Assembly: GCA_903856805.1 (NCBI GenBank)
Contig: CAIOCZ010000054.1
Coordinates: forward strand, 1 to 51,307
Length of the DNA stretch: 51,307 nt
Source of the DNA: an uncultured cyanobacterium
Lineage (GTDB): Bacteria; Cyanobacteriota; Cyanobacteriia; PCC-6307; Cyanobiaceae
Direction: 5' to 3'
The position numbers and the translations under genes are program-made. This document shows, piece by piece, positions 17,474-26,147 of this stretch (position 1 is the stretch's first letter; the number at the start of each line of letters is the position of its first letter). Under the pieces are notes generated by a model, which saw only the letters and a program-made list of their open reading frames with translations, had not been told where the DNA came from and searched no databases.

Positions 17474-18604
17474 ATGCGCTGCGCCCTGCGTCGTTTTTCC
17501 CTCACCAAGGCCGTTCCGCTGGCGATCAGTCGGGGCACCACGGCGACGGTGGAGCATCTGTTGTTGTCTGTGGAGCACGAAGGGGTGACGGGCTGGGGGG
17601 AAACCGGGGGGTTCGACACCGGCCACCGGTCCTTCACCACCGGGTCCATTGCCGCCGAACTGGAGGCCCTGCTGCCCACCCTGGAGACCCTGGTTCCGGA
17701 ACCTCGCCAGGCGTTCGATTCCCTTTTGGCTCCCCTGTCGCCCCCGGCGCGCTGTGCCGTCGATCTCGCCCTGCTCGATTGGTGGGGCAAGCGGCTGGAC
17801 CAGCCCCTGGGACGGCTCTGGGGCCTGGACCACCGCGCCGTGGTACCCACCAGCGTCACCCTGGGCCTGGGGACAGTGGAGGCGGTGTTGGAGCGGTTGG
17901 AACTGTGGTGGCGGCAGCTGCCCGCCACCCGGATCAAGCTGAAGCTTGGCAGCCCCGCGGGGCTTGACCACGACCGGGCCCTGGTGGAGGCGGTGCGGGG
18001 CGCCCTGGCTCGCCAGGCCGATCGCACCGGGGTGGCCTGCGAGTTGCAGGTCGATGCCAACGGCGGCTGGGATCGGGACGGGGCCCGGGCCATGGTGGGA
18101 TGGTTGGGGGAACAGGGGGTGGTGCTGGTGGAGCAGCCGCTGCCGCCCCAGGCCGACCCTGACGCCGACTGTGCCGCCTTCGCCGATCTGGAGCTGGATT
18201 GTCCGATTCCCCTGGTGGCCGATGAGAGCTGTTGGGATCTGAGCGACGTGGTGCGCCTGGCCCCCTTCGTGGATGGGGTGAACATCAAGTTGTTGAAGAG
18301 TGGTGGCCTCAGTGAGGCCCTGCTGATGGCCTGCACCGCGCGTCGCCTGGGTCTGGCGGTGATGGTTGGCTGCTACTCCGACAGTGCCTTGCTCAATGGG
18401 TCCGCTGCCCAGTTGCTGCCCCTGGTGGATTGGCCGGATCTCGATAGTCACCTCAATCTGCTCGACGATCCCTTCTTGCCGCCGCCCCTGATCCAAGACG
18501 TTCTGCAGCCGGGCCGCAGTGCCGGTGTCGGGGTGCTGCCCTGCCCGAATGGTTCCCTCGCAGATCTTTCCCCGCCAACCCTGCTGTCGACATCGCCATG
18601 CTGA
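17474..18604 (+). CDS. dgcA: Enolase-superfamily racemase/epimerase (DgcA / dipeptide-epimerase type)
   Basis: A 376-residue muconate-lactonizing subgroup protein with a full active site. Lys155-x-Lys157 (RIKLKLGS), metal ligands Asp194 (VDANGG), Glu220 (VEQPL) and Asp250 (ADES), and Lys275 (IKLLKSGG) are all present. Such proteins racemise or epimerise the alpha-carbon of acyl amino acids. They are annotated as L-Ala-D/L-Glu epimerase or, when paired with a DUF1611 protein, as N-acetyl-D-glutamate racemase. The next gene is DUF1611 and overlaps by 7 bp, which favours the DgcA reading; this is inference from gene pairing. A 14-bp palindrome precedes it. Confidence 0.75.
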   Translation: MRCALRRFSLTKAVPLAISRGTTATVEHLLLSVEHEGVTGWGETGGFDTGHRSFTTGSIAAELEALLPTLETLVPEPRQAFDSLLAPLSPPARCAVDLALLDWWGKRLDQPLGRLWGLDHRAVVPTSVTLGLGTVEAVLERLELWWRQLPATRIKLKLGSPAGLDHDRALVEAVRGALARQADRTGVACELQVDANGGWDRDGARAMVGWLGEQGVVLVEQPLPPQADPDADCAAFADLELDCPIPLVADESCWDLSDVVRLAPFVDGVNIKLLKSGGLSEALLMACTARRLGLAVMVGCYSDSALLNGSAAQLLPLVDWPDLDSHLNLLDDPFLPPPLIQDVLQPGRSAGVGVLPCPNGSLADLSPPTLLSTSPC

Positions 18605-19662
18605 GCCCCGATGCCCCCGTGGTGCTGCTCCAGCACCACGGCCTCACCAACCTGAGCGGCAAGACCGGTCTCACCGTGCTCCGCTACCGCCCAGGTCCCG
18701 TGGTGGCCGTGGTGGATCCTGCCCATGCCGGTGCCTCCCTGCGCCAGCTCACGGGCATCGATCGGGAGGTGCCGGTGGTGGCTTCCCTGGAGGAGGCCTT
18801 GCCCTTCGCTCCGCAGGTGGCGGTGGTGGGCCTGGCCCCCTCCGGTGGCCGGTTGCCCCCGGAGCTGCGGGTCGACCTGGCGGCGGCGCTGTCCGCCGGA
18901 TTATCCCTGGCCAGTGGCCTCCATAGCCGGCTGGCGGAGGATCCCGAGCTGGCGGCGTTACGGCAGCCGGGGCGCTGGATCTGGGATTTGCGTCAGGAGC
19001 CGCCCGGTCTGTCGGTGGCCTCGGCCCGGGCCGCCACCTTGCCCGGCCGGCGATTGCTGGCGGTTGGCTCCGACATGTCCGTGGGCAAGATGAGCGCCTG
19101 CCTGGAACTGGCCGCAGCGGCCCAGCGTCAGGGGATTGATGCCCGCTTTGTCGGCACCGGCCAGGCCGGCATCCTGATCAGTGGCGCGGGGGTGGCGCTG
19201 GATGCGGTGCGGGTCGACTACGCCGCGGGGGCCGTGGAACAGGCGGTGCTGACGGCGGCCGCCGGGGCCGATGCGGCCACCCTGGTGCTCGTGGAGGGCC
19301 AGGGGTCCCTAGGCCATCCAGGTTCCAGCGCCACCCTGCCGTTGCTGCGCGGCAGCCAGCCCACCCAGTTGCTGTTGGTGCACCGGGCCGGGCAGACCGC
19401 CATTCGTCACCAACCCGGGGTGCCTCTGCCGGCGTTGCCTCAATTGATCAGCACCCTGGAGGCCTTGGCCTGCCTGGGGCGTCCGGCGGCGGCGGATGGC
19501 CCCCCCCCACGGGTGGCGGCCATCGCCTTGAACACCGGCCACTTGGGGGCCCTAGAGGCGGCGGCGGCCATCGCTGCCACCGCCGCAGCCACCGGCCTGC
19601 CCTGTCACGATCCGGTGCGAGAGGGCGGCGACGCCTTGCTAGCGACGGTGCTCATGGCCTGA
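18598..19662 (+). CDS. dgcN: DUF1611 protein (DgcN-like, probable D-glutamate N-acetyltransferase)
   Basis: A 354-residue protein. The N-terminal Rossmann-like part is followed by a P-loop domain with GSDMSVGKM (residues 157-165), then FVGTGQAGILISG and LVEGQGSLGHPG, the hallmarks of DUF1611. Homologues called DgcN are reported to N-acetylate D-glutamate before a DgcA racemase yields N-acetyl-L-glutamate. The start overlaps the dgcA-like stop by 7 bp, so translation is probably coupled. A 12-bp palindrome TGGATCGATCCA lies immediately after the stop. Exact substrate is inferred from the pair. Confidence 0.75.
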   Translation: MLSPDAPVVLLQHHGLTNLSGKTGLTVLRYRPGPVVAVVDPAHAGASLRQLTGIDREVPVVASLEEALPFAPQVAVVGLAPSGGRLPPELRVDLAAALSAGLSLASGLHSRLAEDPELAALRQPGRWIWDLRQEPPGLSVASARAATLPGRRLLAVGSDMSVGKMSACLELAAAAQRQGIDARFVGTGQAGILISGAGVALDAVRVDYAAGAVEQAVLTAAAGADAATLVLVEGQGSLGHPGSSATLPLLRGSQPTQLLLVHRAGQTAIRHQPGVPLPALPQLISTLEALACLGRPAAADGPPPRVAAIALNTGHLGALEAAAAIAATAAATGLPCHDPVREGGDALLATVLMA

Positions 19663-19755
19663 TGGATCGATCCACACCAGCATTTGGAACCTGGACCTGC
19701 ACCCTTGGACAAGAGCAAGTTCTGGCTCCGCAGGGGGGCTGGAATGTCAAGAGAG

Positions 19756-19829
19756 GGCGAGCGAGGGGATTCGAACCCCCGTATAGCGGCGCCACAAGCC
19801 GCTGCCTTAACCACTTGGCGACGCCCGCC
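19756..19829 (-). tRNA. tRNA-His (anticodon GTG)
   Basis: A 74-nt tRNA with the histidine-specific extra G(-1) at 19829 facing C73. The acceptor stem is GCGGGCG/CGCTCGC with one G-U pair. The anticodon stem GCGGC/GCCGC encloses loop TTGTGGC, giving GTG. The T arm contains GGTTCGAATCC. It lies antisense within the plus-strand accessory block. Confidence 0.95.
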
Positions 19830-19930
19830 GTGGTCAACGAAACTTACACCAGCAGCTCTTCAGCCGGTCTGCCGCATCGGCCCTCGCCTGGCATCGCTTC
19901 GGCGATGATTGGGGCCCTCCTGGTTCTTCA

Positions 19931-20365
19931 GTGACGAGCGGCGTGTTCGTGGCCTCCGCCTTGCCCCGTGCTCTTTTGACCATGGTCGTTCTGGGGGGGA
20001 CAGGCGCCGGCCTGGCGGCCACCAATCCGGGGCCCGAAGCCTTTGCAGAGTTTGCGGGTGAGCGGCTCAGCCGCGAGATTGCGGCGGAGGTGTGCCGGCC
20101 TGAGGGATTACCGATGATGCTGCGGCTGGTCATCCGCGATTGTCCGGGGTTGGTGCAGGCCCAGAAGACCACCCTGGGGCGGCTGGCCCTGGACCATTCG
20201 CACCGCAGCAACCTTGGGCTGCTCAGCCTCTATCGCACCGATCTGGGCGGCGCATCGTTGGGCCGCTGGCGCCTGCCCCGCTTTGAGGCCCTCACCCTGG
20301 CCGTGGCGGGGCGCTTTCTGTTGCTTTCGGCCCAGGAGCAGGCCGTCGATTCGCCCCGGCCATGA
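19931..20365 (+). CDS. DUF4359 domain protein, exported or membrane-anchored
   Basis: A 144-residue protein with a hydrophobic N-terminal segment (about residues 14-29), then NPGPEAFAEFAGERL, two cysteines (VCRPEGLP and RDCPGL) and a basic middle. This matches the cyanobacterial DUF4359 pattern. Function is unknown. The start is a GTG at 19931, with another GTG at 19943 possible. Its stop overlaps the ATG of the CodA-like gene (ATGA), so it belongs to the same transcription unit. The two Cys may pair if the domain is outside the cytoplasm. Confidence 0.65.
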   Translation: MTSGVFVASALPRALLTMVVLGGTGAGLAATNPGPEAFAEFAGERLSREIAAEVCRPEGLPMMLRLVIRDCPGLVQAQKTTLGRLALDHSHRSNLGLLSLYRTDLGGASLGRWRLPRFEALTLAVAGRFLLLSAQEQAVDSPRP

Positions 20366-21660
20366 GCGGCGAGGATCGGCGGACCGTTCTGCCGCCGCTG
20401 CGGGTGCCCCGAGCCCTGCTGGATCCCCGCCGTGCCGATCTTGGCCCGATCGATGGCAATGGACTGGTGGCCGTGCAGCTCCGCCTGGATGGGGATCGGG
20501 TGGAGGCGATCGATCCCTGGCGTGGTTCGGCGTCGCTCCTCCCCCTGGCGCTCACGCCACTGGTGGATCCCCACGTTCACCTCGACAAGGCCTTCAGCGC
20601 CCCCATTGAGGTCAACCCCGAGGGCACCATGGCCGCCGCCATGGTCGCCAATCGGCGGGAGGCGTCCGAACGCCAGCCGGCGATGGTGGAAGCCCGGGCG
20701 GATCGGGCCCTGGCTTTGGCCTGGCAGAACGGATTGCGGGCACTCCGCAGCCATGTCGACAGCCTGGGGCCGTGGGCGGCCCCGAGTTGGGAGGTGTTGG
20801 AGGAGCGCCGCCGCCGTTGGCAGGGGCGCCTGGATCTCCAGCTGGTGGCGCTGGTGCCGATCCTTCACTGGCTCACCCCGGAGGGGGAGGCCCTGGCCAG
20901 GCGGCTGGCGGACGGTCGGGGGGTGCTCGGCGGGGTGCTGGGGGCTCCCTTCCCGCCCAGTCGCCAGGATGGGGACGCCCTGTTGGCCCTGCTGCGGTTG
21001 GCGGAGCGCCATGGCTGCGCCGTGGATCTGCACATCGATGAGAGCGCCGACCATCACGGACGGGGGGTGCGGTTGCTGGCGCAGCTGCTGGCCACCCATC
21101 GGCTGGCGGTGCCCGTGGTTTGCAGCCATGCCAGCAGCATGGGCCTGATGGGGGAGCGTCCCCAGCGGCGACTGGCCGAGGCCCTGGCGGCGGCTGAGGT
21201 GGGGGTGGTGGCCTTGCCGACCACCAACCTCTGGCTGCTGGACAAGCAGCCCCGCCGGACGCCGTCGCTGCGGCCCCTAGCCCCGATTCGCCAGTTGCAG
21301 GACGCTGGGGTGGAGGTGGCGGTCGGTGGGGACAACGTTCAGGACCCCTGGTATCCCGGCGGGGATTTCGATCCCCTCGATCTGGTGCGCTTCTGCGTGC
21401 CGGCCTGCCAACTGCAGCCCTGGCGCCGTCAGGGACTGAGTCCCTTCACCACGGCCGCCTCCCGGTTGATGGGCCTGGCCTGGGATGGGGTGGTGCGGGT
21501 GGGTGGTCCTGCGGATCTGGTGGTGCTCGGCGCGGCCAGTTGGCAGGATCTGCTGGCCCGTCCCCCCCAGCGCCGGGTGCTGCGTGCTGGCCATTGGCTC
21601 CCCCCCCCGGAGGCGGAGCATCCCTCGCCGTTGCTGGCGGCCCTACCCGTTCGCCGCTGA
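20362..21660 (+). CDS. CodA-like metal-dependent amidohydrolase
   Basis: A 432-residue amidohydrolase with all metal-site residues of the cytosine deaminase type: His71 and His73 (DPHVHLD), His224 and Glu227 (HIDES), His256 (CSHASSM) and Asp324 (GGDNVQDPWYPGG). However, the position of the pyrimidine-binding Gln of E. coli CodA (Gln156 in FPQEG) seems to be Pro166. The substrate may therefore not be cytosine. Translation is coupled to DUF4359 by ATGA, and the FAD oxidase starts 5 bp after the stop. It probably deaminates or hydrolyses a cyclic N-compound in the cytoplasm. Confidence 0.8.
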   Translation: MSGEDRRTVLPPLRVPRALLDPRRADLGPIDGNGLVAVQLRLDGDRVEAIDPWRGSASLLPLALTPLVDPHVHLDKAFSAPIEVNPEGTMAAAMVANRREASERQPAMVEARADRALALAWQNGLRALRSHVDSLGPWAAPSWEVLEERRRRWQGRLDLQLVALVPILHWLTPEGEALARRLADGRGVLGGVLGAPFPPSRQDGDALLALLRLAERHGCAVDLHIDESADHHGRGVRLLAQLLATHRLAVPVVCSHASSMGLMGERPQRRLAEALAAAEVGVVALPTTNLWLLDKQPRRTPSLRPLAPIRQLQDAGVEVAVGGDNVQDPWYPGGDFDPLDLVRFCVPACQLQPWRRQGLSPFTTAASRLMGLAWDGVVRVGGPADLVVLGAASWQDLLARPPQRRVLRAGHWLPPPEAEHPSPLLAALPVRR

Positions 21661-21665
21661 CCCCC

Positions 21666-23081
21666 ATGCCCGCCCGCGCCCTTCCGCCCCTCAGCCCCCC
21701 GGTGAGCGGGGCCTGCATCGACAGCCTGGCCGCCGAGCTGGACGGTCAGCCCGCCTTGGAGCTGCTGCGCCACCCTGCCGACCTGGCGCGTCTGTCCAGG
21801 GATTTCAACGACTATTCACCGGTGCTGCAGCCGTTGCTGGCCGGCTGCCGTGCCCAGCTGGTGGTGCGGGCCTTGTCGGTGCAGGCGGTGATGCAGGTCG
21901 CCGCGGCCTGTGCCCGCCATGGAGTCCCGCTGACTGTGCGCGGCGCCGGCACGGGAAATTACGGCCAGTGCGTGCCCCTGGCCGGGGGGGTGGTGCTCGA
22001 TCTTTCTGGGTTGACGGCCCTGCGGCAGTTGGATCCGCACAGTGGCGTGGTGACCGTGGAGGCGGGCTGTGTGTTGGCCGATCTCGATCGGCAACTTGCT
22101 CCCCACGGCCGGGCCCTGCGCCTGTTGCCCAGTACCTTTCGCAGCGCCACGGTGGGCGGCTTTCTGGCCGGCGGCTCGGGGGGCATCGGTTCGCTGCGCT
22201 GGGGTTTCCTGCGGGATCCCGGACACCTGCTCGGCCTGGAGGTGGTGACCCTGGAACCCCAGCCCCGGCTGCTGCAGCTCGACGCGGAGGCCAGCACTCC
22301 CCTTAACCACGCCTATGGCAGCAACGGCATCATCACAGCGGTTCGGTTGAGTACCTGTGCGGCCGTGGCCTGGCAGCAACTGGTGGTGGGGTTCGAGTCT
22401 TGGGAGGCGGCCCTGGCGGTGGGGAGGGAGTTACCGACCACCGCGTTGCTGCTCAATGCCCTCACCCTGGTGGAGGGGCCGTTGGCGGCCGGCCTGCCCT
22501 GGCCCGGCGGCTGTCCGGCGGCGTCGGTGACGGAACCGCGCCTGTTGCTGCTCGCCGCCCCCGACACGCTGGAAGTCTTACCGGCTTGGTTGCTCCGTCA
22601 CGGCGGGCGGCTGTTGTGGCAGGCCGGTCTCGGGGCCCAGCGGGGCCATGGGGTGCGCGAGTTGGGCTGGAACCACACCACCCTCCACTGGCGGGCCCAC
22701 TACCCCGAGTGGACCTACCTCCAGATGCTGCTGCCGGAGGACCCGGCCCCGTTGTTGTCGGCGGTGCGGCAGGGTTGGGGCGATGGGCTGCTCTGGCATC
22801 TGGAGGCGGTGCGGCAGCAGGGTCAGGCGCGGCTGGCCGGTCTGCCGGTGCTGCGCTGGCAGGGCCAGGAGCAGCTCCAGTCGCTCATCGATCTCTGTCG
22901 CGACCAGGGGGCGATGGTGTTCGATCCCCATGTGGTCACGGTGGAGGACGGGGGCCTGGGGGTGATTGACGCCGATCAGGTGGCAGCCAAGGGGCGCCAC
23001 GATCCGGCCGGGCTACTCAACCCCGGTAAGTTGCGGGGCTGGAGCGCCCCACCCCCCGACATCAGCCGCATTCGAGGCTGA
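21666..23081 (+). CDS. FAD-linked oxidase (FAD_binding_4 family)
   Basis: A 471-residue flavoprotein. The PP-loop segment LTVRGAGTGNYGQ (about residues 89-101) and SATVGGFLAGGSGGIGS (about residues 155-171) bind FAD as in the VAO/glycolate-oxidase subunit family. The ending HDPAGLLNPGKL is typical of these oxidases. Substrates in the family include hydroxyacids and cytokinins; here none can be assigned. It starts 5 bp after the CodA-like gene, so the two likely act together. The 3' end overlaps the convergent pentapeptide gene by 20 bp. Confidence 0.85.
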   Translation: MPARALPPLSPPVSGACIDSLAAELDGQPALELLRHPADLARLSRDFNDYSPVLQPLLAGCRAQLVVRALSVQAVMQVAAACARHGVPLTVRGAGTGNYGQCVPLAGGVVLDLSGLTALRQLDPHSGVVTVEAGCVLADLDRQLAPHGRALRLLPSTFRSATVGGFLAGGSGGIGSLRWGFLRDPGHLLGLEVVTLEPQPRLLQLDAEASTPLNHAYGSNGIITAVRLSTCAAVAWQQLVVGFESWEAALAVGRELPTTALLLNALTLVEGPLAAGLPWPGGCPAASVTEPRLLLLAAPDTLEVLPAWLLRHGGRLLWQAGLGAQRGHGVRELGWNHTTLHWRAHYPEWTYLQMLLPEDPAPLLSAVRQGWGDGLLWHLEAVRQQGQARLAGLPVLRWQGQEQLQSLIDLCRDQGAMVFDPHVVTVEDGGLGVIDADQVAAKGRHDPAGLLNPGKLRGWSAPPPDISRIRG

Positions 23082-23580
23082 TGCGGGTGTCGACCCCGGT
23101 GATCGGATTGGTGCCGCTGGCCTCCCGGCAGAGGGCCCGCTGATCCACCCGATCCAGGAGGGCATCGCTGAAATCGGCATTGGTCACGATGGCGCCGCTG
23201 AAGCTGCTGCCGGAGGCGATCACCCCGCGCAGGAGGGCGCCGCTGAGGTCCGCTCCGCTGAAATCCACCTTGTCCATCAGGGCGTCGCTGAGGTTGGCAT
23301 CCCGGAAATCAGCGCCGGGGAAGGCGGCCTGGGTGAGGATCGCCCCGTGGAGATCGGCCCCCTGGAAGCGGGCTTTGCGCCCCACCACACCGGCAAAGGA
23401 GGTTTGGGCCAGATCCTGGCCGCTGAAGTCCTGGCCGCTCTGGTTGGTGAGGGTGTAGTCCACCCCCTGGAATTCGGCACGGGCGGGGGCCGGAGCCCCT
23501 GTGATCAGGCCAAGGACTGCCAGCACCAGGGCCAGCACCATGGGCAGGAGGCGTGGGACGGGGGTGGGGGTGGGGGGCAT
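23062..23580 (-). CDS. Pentapeptide-repeat protein with signal peptide
   Basis: A 172-residue protein. A hydrophobic leader (about residues 12-35, ending APARAE) looks like a Sec signal with an AxA cleavage site. At least a dozen A(D/N)LXX-type repeats follow (for example ADLHGAI, ANLSDAL, ADLSGALL), then a C-terminal region with two Cys (LCREAS and LECG). This matches thylakoid-lumen pentapeptide proteins of cyanobacteria, whose role is unsettled. An internal ATG at 23541 could also start it. Confidence 0.85.
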   Translation of the reverse strand: MPPTPTPVPRLLPMVLALVLAVLGLITGAPAPARAEFQGVDYTLTNQSGQDFSGQDLAQTSFAGVVGRKARFQGADLHGAILTQAAFPGADFRDANLSDALMDKVDFSGADLSGALLRGVIASGSSFSGAIVTNADFSDALLDRVDQRALCREASGTNPITGVDTRISLECG

Positions 23581-24929: not shown

Positions 24930-26147
24930 TCAGGCCAGGGATTGCAGGGCAAGTTCCAGGCGTTCCACCAGCTTGCGCAGCTGCTTGGGCTTGATCACCA
25001 GGGGAGGCACCACACGCACCACGTTGGGCCCGGCGGACACCAGCAGTAGCCCTAGGTCCATGGCGGCCTTCACCACGTCGGGGGCGCTCGGGCCCCCCTC
25101 GCGCAGCACCAGTCCCTGGAGCAGGCCCCACCCTCGGGATTCCACCAGCAGGTTGGGGTGGCGATCGATCAGGCCATGGAGCAAGTCCTCCAACAGCGCA
25201 CCGCGGTCGCGGACTTGGCTGAGCAGGTTGCGCCGCTCGATTTCGGCGAGCACGGTGAGGCCGGCTCGGCAGGCAAAGGGATTACCACCAAAGGTGCTGG
25301 CGTGGTCTCCCGGGCGGAAGTGATCCACGGCGGCTTTGACCGCCAGGGCTCCAATGGGGATGCCCCCTCCCAGGCCTTTGGCCATGGTGAAAGCATCCGG
25401 TTCCACTCCCAGCTGCTCATAGCCCCACCAGCGGCCGCTGCGGCCCACCCCGATCTGCACCTCATCGAAGATCAGCAGAATGTTGTGGGCGTCGCAGAGT
25501 TGACGCACCCGCTGAAAGAAGGCGGGATCGCCTGGATTCACCCCGCCTTCCCCCTGCAGGGGTTCCAGGAGCACTGCCGCCACCCTGGGACCGTCGGCTT
25601 CAGCGGCGGCGAGCAGGGCCTCGAAGGCCGACGTGTCGTTGTAGGGGAAGTGGCGGAACCCCTGCACCATCGGCTCGAAGCCCTGGTGATATTTGGGTTG
25701 GCCGGTGGCGGACACGGCGGCGAGGGTGCGGCCGTGGAAGCTGGCGTGGGCCGTGAGGATCAGGGGCTCGGCGATGCCGCGCACCATGTGGCCATGCTTG
25801 CGGGCCAGCTTGATGGCGGCCTCGTTGGCTTCCGCCCCGGAATTGCAGAAGAACACCCGATCGGCACAGCTGCGGGCGCAGATCGCCCGCGCTAGCTCCT
25901 CCTGTTCGGGGATGCCGTAGAGGTTGGAGACATGTTGAAGACGCCCCAGTTGGCGGTTCAACTGGCGCCGCAGCACCCGATCACTGTGGCCGAGGGTGCA
26001 CACGGCGATTCCCGCCATCCCATCGAGGTAACGGCGTCCTGCCTGATCCCAGAGCCACACCCCCCGTCCCCGCACCAGTTCCAAGGGGAAACGGGCGTAG
26101 GTGTCCATGACCGAGGACGCCGGAAAGGACGGAACCGGTTGGCTCAC
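24930..26147 (-). CDS. argD: Acetylornithine aminotransferase
   Basis: A 405-residue class III PLP transaminase. It shows VWDxxG-like sequence (VWLWDQAGRRYLDGMAGI), FFCNSGAEANEAAIKLARK, FHGRTLAAVSATGQ, LIFDEVQIGVGRSG, the PLP lysine in TMAKGLGGGIPIGA and ASTFGGNPFACRA. It makes N-acetylornithine in arginine synthesis. The start is a GTG at 26147. It precedes folC by five bases and lies just downstream of tRNA-Leu on the same strand. Its substrates derive from N-acetyl-L-glutamate, the predicted product of the DgcA/DgcN pair nearby. Confidence 0.94.
   Translation of the reverse strand: MSQPVPSFPASSVMDTYARFPLELVRGRGVWLWDQAGRRYLDGMAGIAVCTLGHSDRVLRRQLNRQLGRLQHVSNLYGIPEQEELARAICARSCADRVFFCNSGAEANEAAIKLARKHGHMVRGIAEPLILTAHASFHGRTLAAVSATGQPKYHQGFEPMVQGFRHFPYNDTSAFEALLAAAEADGPRVAAVLLEPLQGEGGVNPGDPAFFQRVRQLCDAHNILLIFDEVQIGVGRSGRWWGYEQLGVEPDAFTMAKGLGGGIPIGALAVKAAVDHFRPGDHASTFGGNPFACRAGLTVLAEIERRNLLSQVRDRGALLEDLLHGLIDRHPNLLVESRGWGLLQGLVLREGGPSAPDVVKAAMDLGLLLVSAGPNVVRVVPPLVIKPKQLRKLVERLELALQSLA

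Follow-up and report, generated by a model that had tools for sequence, protein, structure and literature searches.

The window analyzed here is contig CAIOCZ010000054.1 of an uncultured cyanobacterium (assembly GCA_903856805.1), 51,307 nucleotides long. Between positions 17474 and 23081 it carries genes for a racemase-like protein, a DUF1611 protein, a DUF4359 protein, a CodA-like amidohydrolase, and a flavin adenine dinucleotide (FAD)-binding protein. All five open reading frames (ORFs) were confirmed on the plus strand at the expected positions, and their families were assigned through Pfam and NCBIfam. A first-pass annotation had joined the last two genes to a D-glutamate pathway formed by the first two. 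We instead favor, with a probability of roughly 0.6, two independent modules lying side by side, in which module A is a DgcA/DgcN-like pair and module B a pterin/folate-type deaminase with a flavin oxygenase. The genes of module B are called CodA and FAD below, and those of module A DgcA and DgcN. The features are as follows.

17474-18604, plus strand: DgcA-like racemase/epimerase of the enolase superfamily (Pfam MR_MLE_N/C; module A)
18598-19662, plus strand: DgcN-like DUF1611 protein (Pfam DUF1611_N and DUF1611; module A)
19755-19828, minus strand: tRNA-His (GTG), the antisense boundary between modules A and B (ARAGORN)
19931-20365, plus strand: DUF4359 protein (Pfam DUF4359, 64 bits)
20362-21660, plus strand: CodA-like amidohydrolase, a relative of PRK07583 and proposed pterin-type deaminase (NCBIfam PRK07583; module B)
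21666-23081, plus strand: FAD-binding, flavin-oxygenase-like protein, a relative of 6v42 (Pfam FAD_binding_4; module B)

The racemase-like ORF overlaps the DUF1611 ORF by 7 nt, as the first-pass annotation had stated. That all five genes share a strand also stands, but the run is interrupted by the minus-strand tRNA-His between the DUF1611 and DUF4359 genes. Similarly, the ATGA coupling described for the last three genes holds for the first junction, where the end of DUF4359 and the start of CodA overlap, and not for the second, where the ATG of FAD (21666) lies 5 nt past the CodA stop and the ORF runs to 23081. All 18 relative loci that span this interval (L018-L034 and L037) have the tRNA-His at the same boundary, antisense to CodA. 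DUF4359 gave no tblastn match in L018-L021, L024, and L026.

Distribution and constraint of the two gene pairs

Three samples were surveyed. The order set comprises 150 genomes, with the window's own genome counted, and some of its matches read through one or two stops. The phylum set comprises 117 genomes, each searched with the five proteins; the class accounts for 49 of these, including three from the window's own family. Co-occurrence among these 49 is given as both/first only/second only/neither, with Fisher p. Finally, 80 named loci were collected, 55 of them Prochlorococcus by title count; judging by these loci, the family, here called Cyanobiaceae, takes in Synechococcus, Cyanobium, and Prochlorococcus.

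In the order set, CodA is present in 148 genomes and FAD in 149, with both in 148. The two genes share a contig and lie less than 700 nt apart in 147 of these 148 (median gap 69 nt), the lone exception being G115, where they are on different contigs. CodA is upstream of FAD in 79 of the 80 named loci (not in L136). The association extends to the class (CodA and FAD: 21/1/7/20, p = 5e-7). Moreover, 13 motif columns of CodA are invariant in the window and in 66 of 66 near-full relatives, taken from 76 ORFs found in the 80 loci, and 22 chosen columns of FAD are invariant in the window and in 80 of 80 relative loci; these columns were picked as invariant in alignments A1 and A2, whose lineages partly overlap with those of the loci checked. 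Among 28 hand-chosen Prochlorococcus loci of the 80, the median ratio of nonsynonymous to synonymous substitution rates (dN/dS, omega), computed for pairs at 80-98.5% identity, is 0.14 for CodA (325 pairs, 26 sequences) and 0.11 for FAD (378 pairs, 28 sequences). These data show that pair B is under purifying selection. A 150-residue ORF in G211 (L047:5330-5782, minus strand) matches the start of the FAD protein and lies near CodA-like and creatininase genes.

Module A is also conserved as a pair. DgcN and DgcA coincide completely in the class (33/0/0/16), and they lie within 1.1 kb of each other in 32 of the 36 phylum-set genomes with both (exceptions G160, G182, G194, and G209). Both pairs are thus conserved as pairs beyond chance. 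DUF1611 matches occur in 81 of the 150 order genomes; two of these (G126 and G029) are remnants, leaving DgcN in 79. It is missing from 70 of the 148 CodA-bearing genomes, and module A is therefore absent from about half of the family, part of which either lacks it or has lost it. Seven small genomes (1.7-2.0 Mb; L018-L021, L024-L026) carry miaB, CodA, FAD, folC, argD, and murA in this order, with DgcA and DgcN absent, and neither gene was found in the 55 named Prochlorococcus loci, some of whose contigs stop inside or just before CodA.

Decay is visible at the locus itself. In G126 (L027:4897-6955), DgcA and DgcN lie at the usual site in several pieces with stops, and G029 (L028:5775-6338) retains just the DgcA start and the DgcN end, which a deletion has apparently fused in frame. 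CodA and FAD are matched over nearly their whole length in both genomes, with one TGA read through in the CodA of G029. G086 has DgcN and FAD but lacks a CodA match, and in G099 all three are missing, making it the sole genome without both CodA and DgcN. In G113, the order DUF4359-CodA-FAD-pentapeptide stands on one contig, with DgcA-DgcN, tRNA-His, and the division cluster on another.

Within the order, DgcN lies less than 3 kb from CodA in 76 of the 78 genomes with both, the exceptions being G113 and G115. However, the panB-to-lpd neighborhood is kept even in relatives without pair A, so this closeness inside the family says little. Across the class, DgcN co-occurs neither with FAD (20/13/8/8, p = 0.55) nor with CodA (13/20/9/7, p = 0.36), and in none of the 19 genomes outside the family with both DgcN and FAD do the two lie within 20 kb. 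Surveyed in this way, CodA and FAD come together with DgcN at random, an outcome that the first-pass annotation had itself named as refuting its assignment of these genes to a D-glutamate pathway. Collectively, these results show that modules A and B are separable, unrelated neighbors.

Relatives of the encoded proteins

The closest solved sequence to the flavoprotein is PDB 6v42/6v43, with 6v42 matched at E 5.3e-90 over residues 18-466 of 471. The entry is titled 'Crystal structure of the flavin oxygenase with cofactor bound involved in folate catabolism'. A structure model built from a 28-row alignment (A3, 27 of the 80 named loci and the window) reached a mean predicted local distance difference test score (pLDDT) of 84; segments 94-101 and 171-183 fall below 50, and no residue-level claim is made. 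A single-sequence model with a pLDDT of 33 was discarded. VIA-align, which re-ranks the top 1000 of Foldseek, places 6v42 first (Z 43.7, 444 residues, 2.4 Å, 35% identity), as does the Foldseek ranking; the next fold match is a D-2-hydroxyglutarate dehydrogenase at Z 29.9, and D-lactate dehydrogenases also follow. The likeness to 6v42/6v43 thus covers near full-length homology, fold, and motifs such as GTGNYGQ and WNHTT. It differs in that the family's proteins form a separate deep clade and in that no importer or reductase gene was found beside the window pair. Furthermore, of the 78 columns that do not vary among 12 other rows, 63 are the same in the seven family rows (alignment A2 omits L038, which has a stop in the reference). 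In Rhizobium, an FAD protein whose gene adjoins a PRK07583 gene matches 6v42 at 724 bits, which ties the 6v42 enzyme to the deaminase-FAD cluster. By homology, the flavoprotein is shown to be kin of the folate-catabolism flavin oxygenase. GlcD, the best NCBIfam model, scored 68.9 bits against a cut-off of 567.9, and glycolate oxidase identity was dropped on this score.

The CodA-like protein has no Pfam match at E <= 0.001. It scores 261 bits against NCBIfam PRK07583 ('cytosine deaminase', cut-off 403), and the closest solved amidohydrolases are cytosine deaminases. Compared with Escherichia coli CodA (1k6w), the conserved His/Glu/Asp columns, which we take to be metal-binding and catalytic, are kept. 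In contrast, the columns of Gln156 and Asp314, presumably the residues that read cytosine, carry other residues in all 18 rows of A1, with Pro, Ser, or Thr in the first and Asn in the second; membership among the cytosine deaminases was rejected on these two columns. Judged from such comparisons, the kinship of pair B is clear and the sameness of its substrate is not.

The proposed activity resembles that of the pterin deaminase Arad3529 and its orthologue from Variovorax sp. F1, a likeness drawn from their published description. In that report, the Variovorax enzyme has 399 residues, is 37% identical to Arad3529, and deaminates folic and pteroic acid (PMC9513972). The same report places endoribonuclease genes downstream of predicted pterin deaminase genes in V. 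paradoxus (PMC9513972); going by this description, we read the endoribonuclease as RidA, which would resemble the deaminase-RidA linkage seen below.

For module A, the best NCBIfam model of the racemase is racemase_DgcA at 156.2 bits (cut-off 400), and that of the DUF1611 protein is DgcN at 217 bits (cut-off 480). These equivalog cut-offs are not reached, and the label is therefore restricted to 'DgcA/DgcN-like'. The DUF1611 protein matches PDB 2obn at 362 bits. Relative to Pseudoalteromonas sp. CF6-2, the racemase is 29% identical to DgcA and the DUF1611 protein 35% to DgcN. The racemase keeps KxK, VDAN, EQP, ADES, and NIK in alignment with CF6-2 DgcA, motifs that we take to be catalytic, and the first-pass description of complete catalytic residues is borne out to this extent. 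As in CF6-2, DUF1611 and enolase-superfamily genes are adjacent. By contrast, the racemase gene comes first in the window, the next genes are miaB and a tRNA rather than dgcR, and the scores lie far beneath the equivalog cut-offs. The earlier identification as a D-glutamate pair is accordingly supported in its family-level likeness and motifs and not in its NCBIfam scores. An N-acyl-D-glutamate route for pair A is a fair guess from this resemblance; DgcN-DgcA is named as a route from D-Glu to L-Glu in one report (PMC10845958). In 24 of the 150 order genomes there is also a second and more divergent DUF1611 match (32-39% identity), for example, at G148:C35:15242-16252, and the start-to-start distance between DgcA and DgcN is unusually long in L085 and L076.

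Neighbors of the deaminase-flavoprotein pair elsewhere

Eight plasmid loci were opened from the 25 listed of 141 records with an FAD match; two of them were already listed as 'cytosine deaminase'. In all eight, an amidohydrolase or 'cytosine deaminase' gene lies directly 5' of the FAD gene, and the clusters hold ABC-importer, creatininase-family, and RidA genes. When chosen members of these loci were scanned for families, they included Flavodoxin_2/FMN_red, creatininase, L-PSP/RidA, and a RutR-like TetR protein. The importer binding protein is of the NMT1 type in the three tested, and the Rhizobium deaminase exceeds the PRK07583 cut-off (702 against 403 bits). The TetR regulator of L013, the sole one scored, is RutR-like at 151 bits against a cut-off of 368. 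CodA and FAD thus have partners of their own elsewhere, namely importer, creatininase-family, and RidA genes.

Among cyanobacteria outside the family, genes for an NMT1 binding protein, an ATPase-like protein, and a permease stand upstream of both CodA and FAD in L038 and L042 and of FAD alone in L054. The same importer pattern was seen by eye in L053, with a creatininase gene 2 kb further on; by eye, no such importer stands beside FAD in L039, L044, L045, L049, L056, and L057. The window thus resembles the proteobacterial import-and-degradation clusters (e.g., Rhizobium leguminosarum pR132501) in having a deaminase gene directly followed by an FAD gene. It differs in keeping only the two enzymes together, with no importer, creatininase, or RidA gene beside the pair.

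The two creatininase-family genes of the window's own genome are on contigs C112 and C76 and not beside pair B. Such genes are present in 61 of 61 order genomes tested; the 1.6-1.7 Mb genomes of genus g2 and three further genomes carry one copy, and the rest carry two. The lone copy of G001 groups with the type nearer to the operon creatininases (30-37% against 26-31% identity; five compared). In the class, this creatininase clade, defined as at least 145 bits against the protein at G000:C112:15818-16534 by a line drawn after the scores were seen, co-occurs with FAD (28/5/0/16, p = 6e-9). In L143:2774-6514 and L145:3086-6878, a creatininase-family gene and an adjacent gene for a long-chain aldehyde decarbonylase, assigned by Pfam in L145, are followed by ORFs that by eye resemble acyl-ACP reductase and AccA carboxyltransferase. 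A promoter and terminator scan returned no promoters and one terminator-like site, below the shuffle mean, and gives no information.

Proposed roles and alternative explanations

Under the two-module reading, module A (17474-19662) probably carries out acylation and epimerization of an acidic D-amino acid such as D-glutamate, and module B (20362-23081) would supply the core enzymes of an operon that breaks down pterin/folate-type rings. The CodA-like enzyme would hydrolyze the exocyclic amino group of a pterin to give a lumazine- or xanthopterin-type ring, the flavoprotein would oxidize this ring, and a creatininase-family amidohydrolase encoded elsewhere might open the lactam so formed. Operons that include an importer would feed on compounds from outside the cell; in the family, with no importer beside the pair, the enzymes may clear the cell's own pterins. 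Four points of this scheme are inferred: which substrate is used, in what sequence the steps follow, that an importer was lost, and what the creatininase-family gene does. Folate photolysis yields 6-formylpterin. On this ground we tentatively suggest, as a possibility less likely than not, an importer-less pterin disposal in nearly all members of the family that deaminates and oxidizes folate breakdown products, which might otherwise accumulate and photosensitize light-exposed cells. Such disposal, even in the most reduced free-living phototrophs, would be housekeeping damage control rather than feeding.

Several observations weigh against this assignment. Of the 18 genomes outside the family with both CodA and FAD, only three have them within 5 kb (G157, G176, and G185, by best CodA match). 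Seven of the 28 class genomes with FAD show no CodA at the limit used, and the match counted as CodA in G240, at 28% identity and 89 bits, could be a paralogue. Because the genomes share ancestry, the Fisher p values overstate independence and the small ones are optimistic. The family's CodA and FAD proteins form deep clades of their own (100/100) in trees built from 18 and 19 rows, standing apart from other cyanobacteria and Proteobacteria. Six CodA columns are fixed differently from 11 other rows, including Phe to Trp at 330, and two FAD columns are fixed differently in the family rows; together with the deep clades, the changed CodA columns suggest that the substrate may have changed. Identity to 6v42 is only 35%, and no paper on 6v42/6v43 was found in the open full-text literature, so the substrate and reaction of that enzyme are known from the entry title alone. 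None of the nine window proteins scanned is an importer, a reductase, or RidA; the search for these did not extend to the rest of the genome. The identity of the creatininase to the operon copies is modest at 30-37%, and its gene adjoins a long-chain aldehyde decarbonylase gene rather than pair B in two genomes (assigned by Pfam for the G001 copy and by eye for the window's own genome).

The main competitor for module B is a nucleobase module, in which a deaminase of cytosine, isocytosine, or a damaged base works with an oxidase. The solved cytosine deaminases nearest to CodA and the name of PRK07583 point this way, and the RutR-like regulator of L013 hints at a pyrimidine-like signal. We nevertheless consider it unlikely, given the replaced Gln156 and Asp314 columns and a flavoprotein whose nearest solved kin is titled as an enzyme of folate catabolism. 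Still less probable is an ordinary D-2-hydroxyacid or glycolate dehydrogenase placed beside the amidohydrolase by accident. GlcD is indeed the best NCBIfam model, and D-2-hydroxyglutarate and D-lactate dehydrogenases come next in fold; but the GlcD score is 69 against 568 bits, the Z score drops from 43.7 to 29.9 past 6v42, and FAD neighbors CodA in 147 of 148 genomes and in the eight opened plasmid loci.

A single D-glutamate recycling module of all five genes, passing N-acetyl-L-glutamate into arginine synthesis, would account for the proximity of DgcN and CodA within the order and for the nearby argD (24930-26147, minus strand; NCBIfam), which the first-pass annotation had correctly noted together with wall genes in the window (ddl, ftsZ, and murA, named by eye from ORFs). 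This proposal is very improbable and was rejected on gene distribution: the class shows no co-occurrence and no neighboring of DgcN and FAD outside the family, 70 CodA-bearing genomes do without DgcN, module A decays alone in G126 and G029, and an antisense tRNA stands between the modules. For module A itself, a minority share of belief goes to a wall-recycling L-Ala-D/L-Glu dipeptide epimerase whose DUF1611 partner serves another function. The epimerase model PRK15129 ranks second for the racemase at 114 bits, the closest solved sequences include dipeptide epimerases, and the Dgc scores fall far below their cut-offs; against this, the DgcA model scores higher, and a DgcN-like gene accompanies the racemase in 33 of 33 class genomes.

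No print record of the deaminase-FAD operon was found in the open full-text literature, which is not proof of absence. In the same literature, PMC9513972 was the one match among those listed that bore on pterin breakdown, no title on pterin breakdown in Prochlorococcus stood among the matches listed, a search for 'pterin deaminase' with cyanobacteria returned only a review on mycotoxins, and the pterin passages of PMC1971073 mention neither deaminase nor catabolism. Family models name pair B only 'cytosine deaminase', 'FAD binding', and the like. Genes that survive heavy genome reduction in Prochlorococcus likely matter; if pterin clearance is true, the pair would offer a testable genetic basis for the turnover of folate in these abundant marine phototrophs, and a link between light damage and the loss of a cofactor may follow. 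Setting aside the misleading five-gene D-glutamate module also leaves the DgcA/DgcN-like pair, patchily present in the family, as a natural experiment and a cleaner test.

Among the flanking genes, miaB, DgcA, DgcN, DUF4359, a pentapeptide-repeat gene, folC, and argD were scanned with Pfam and NCBIfam. The pentapeptide-repeat gene (23062-23580, minus strand) gave no match in the small-genome loci L018-L021 and L024-L026; in the window, it overlaps the end of the FAD gene (21666-23081, plus strand) tail to tail by 20 nt.

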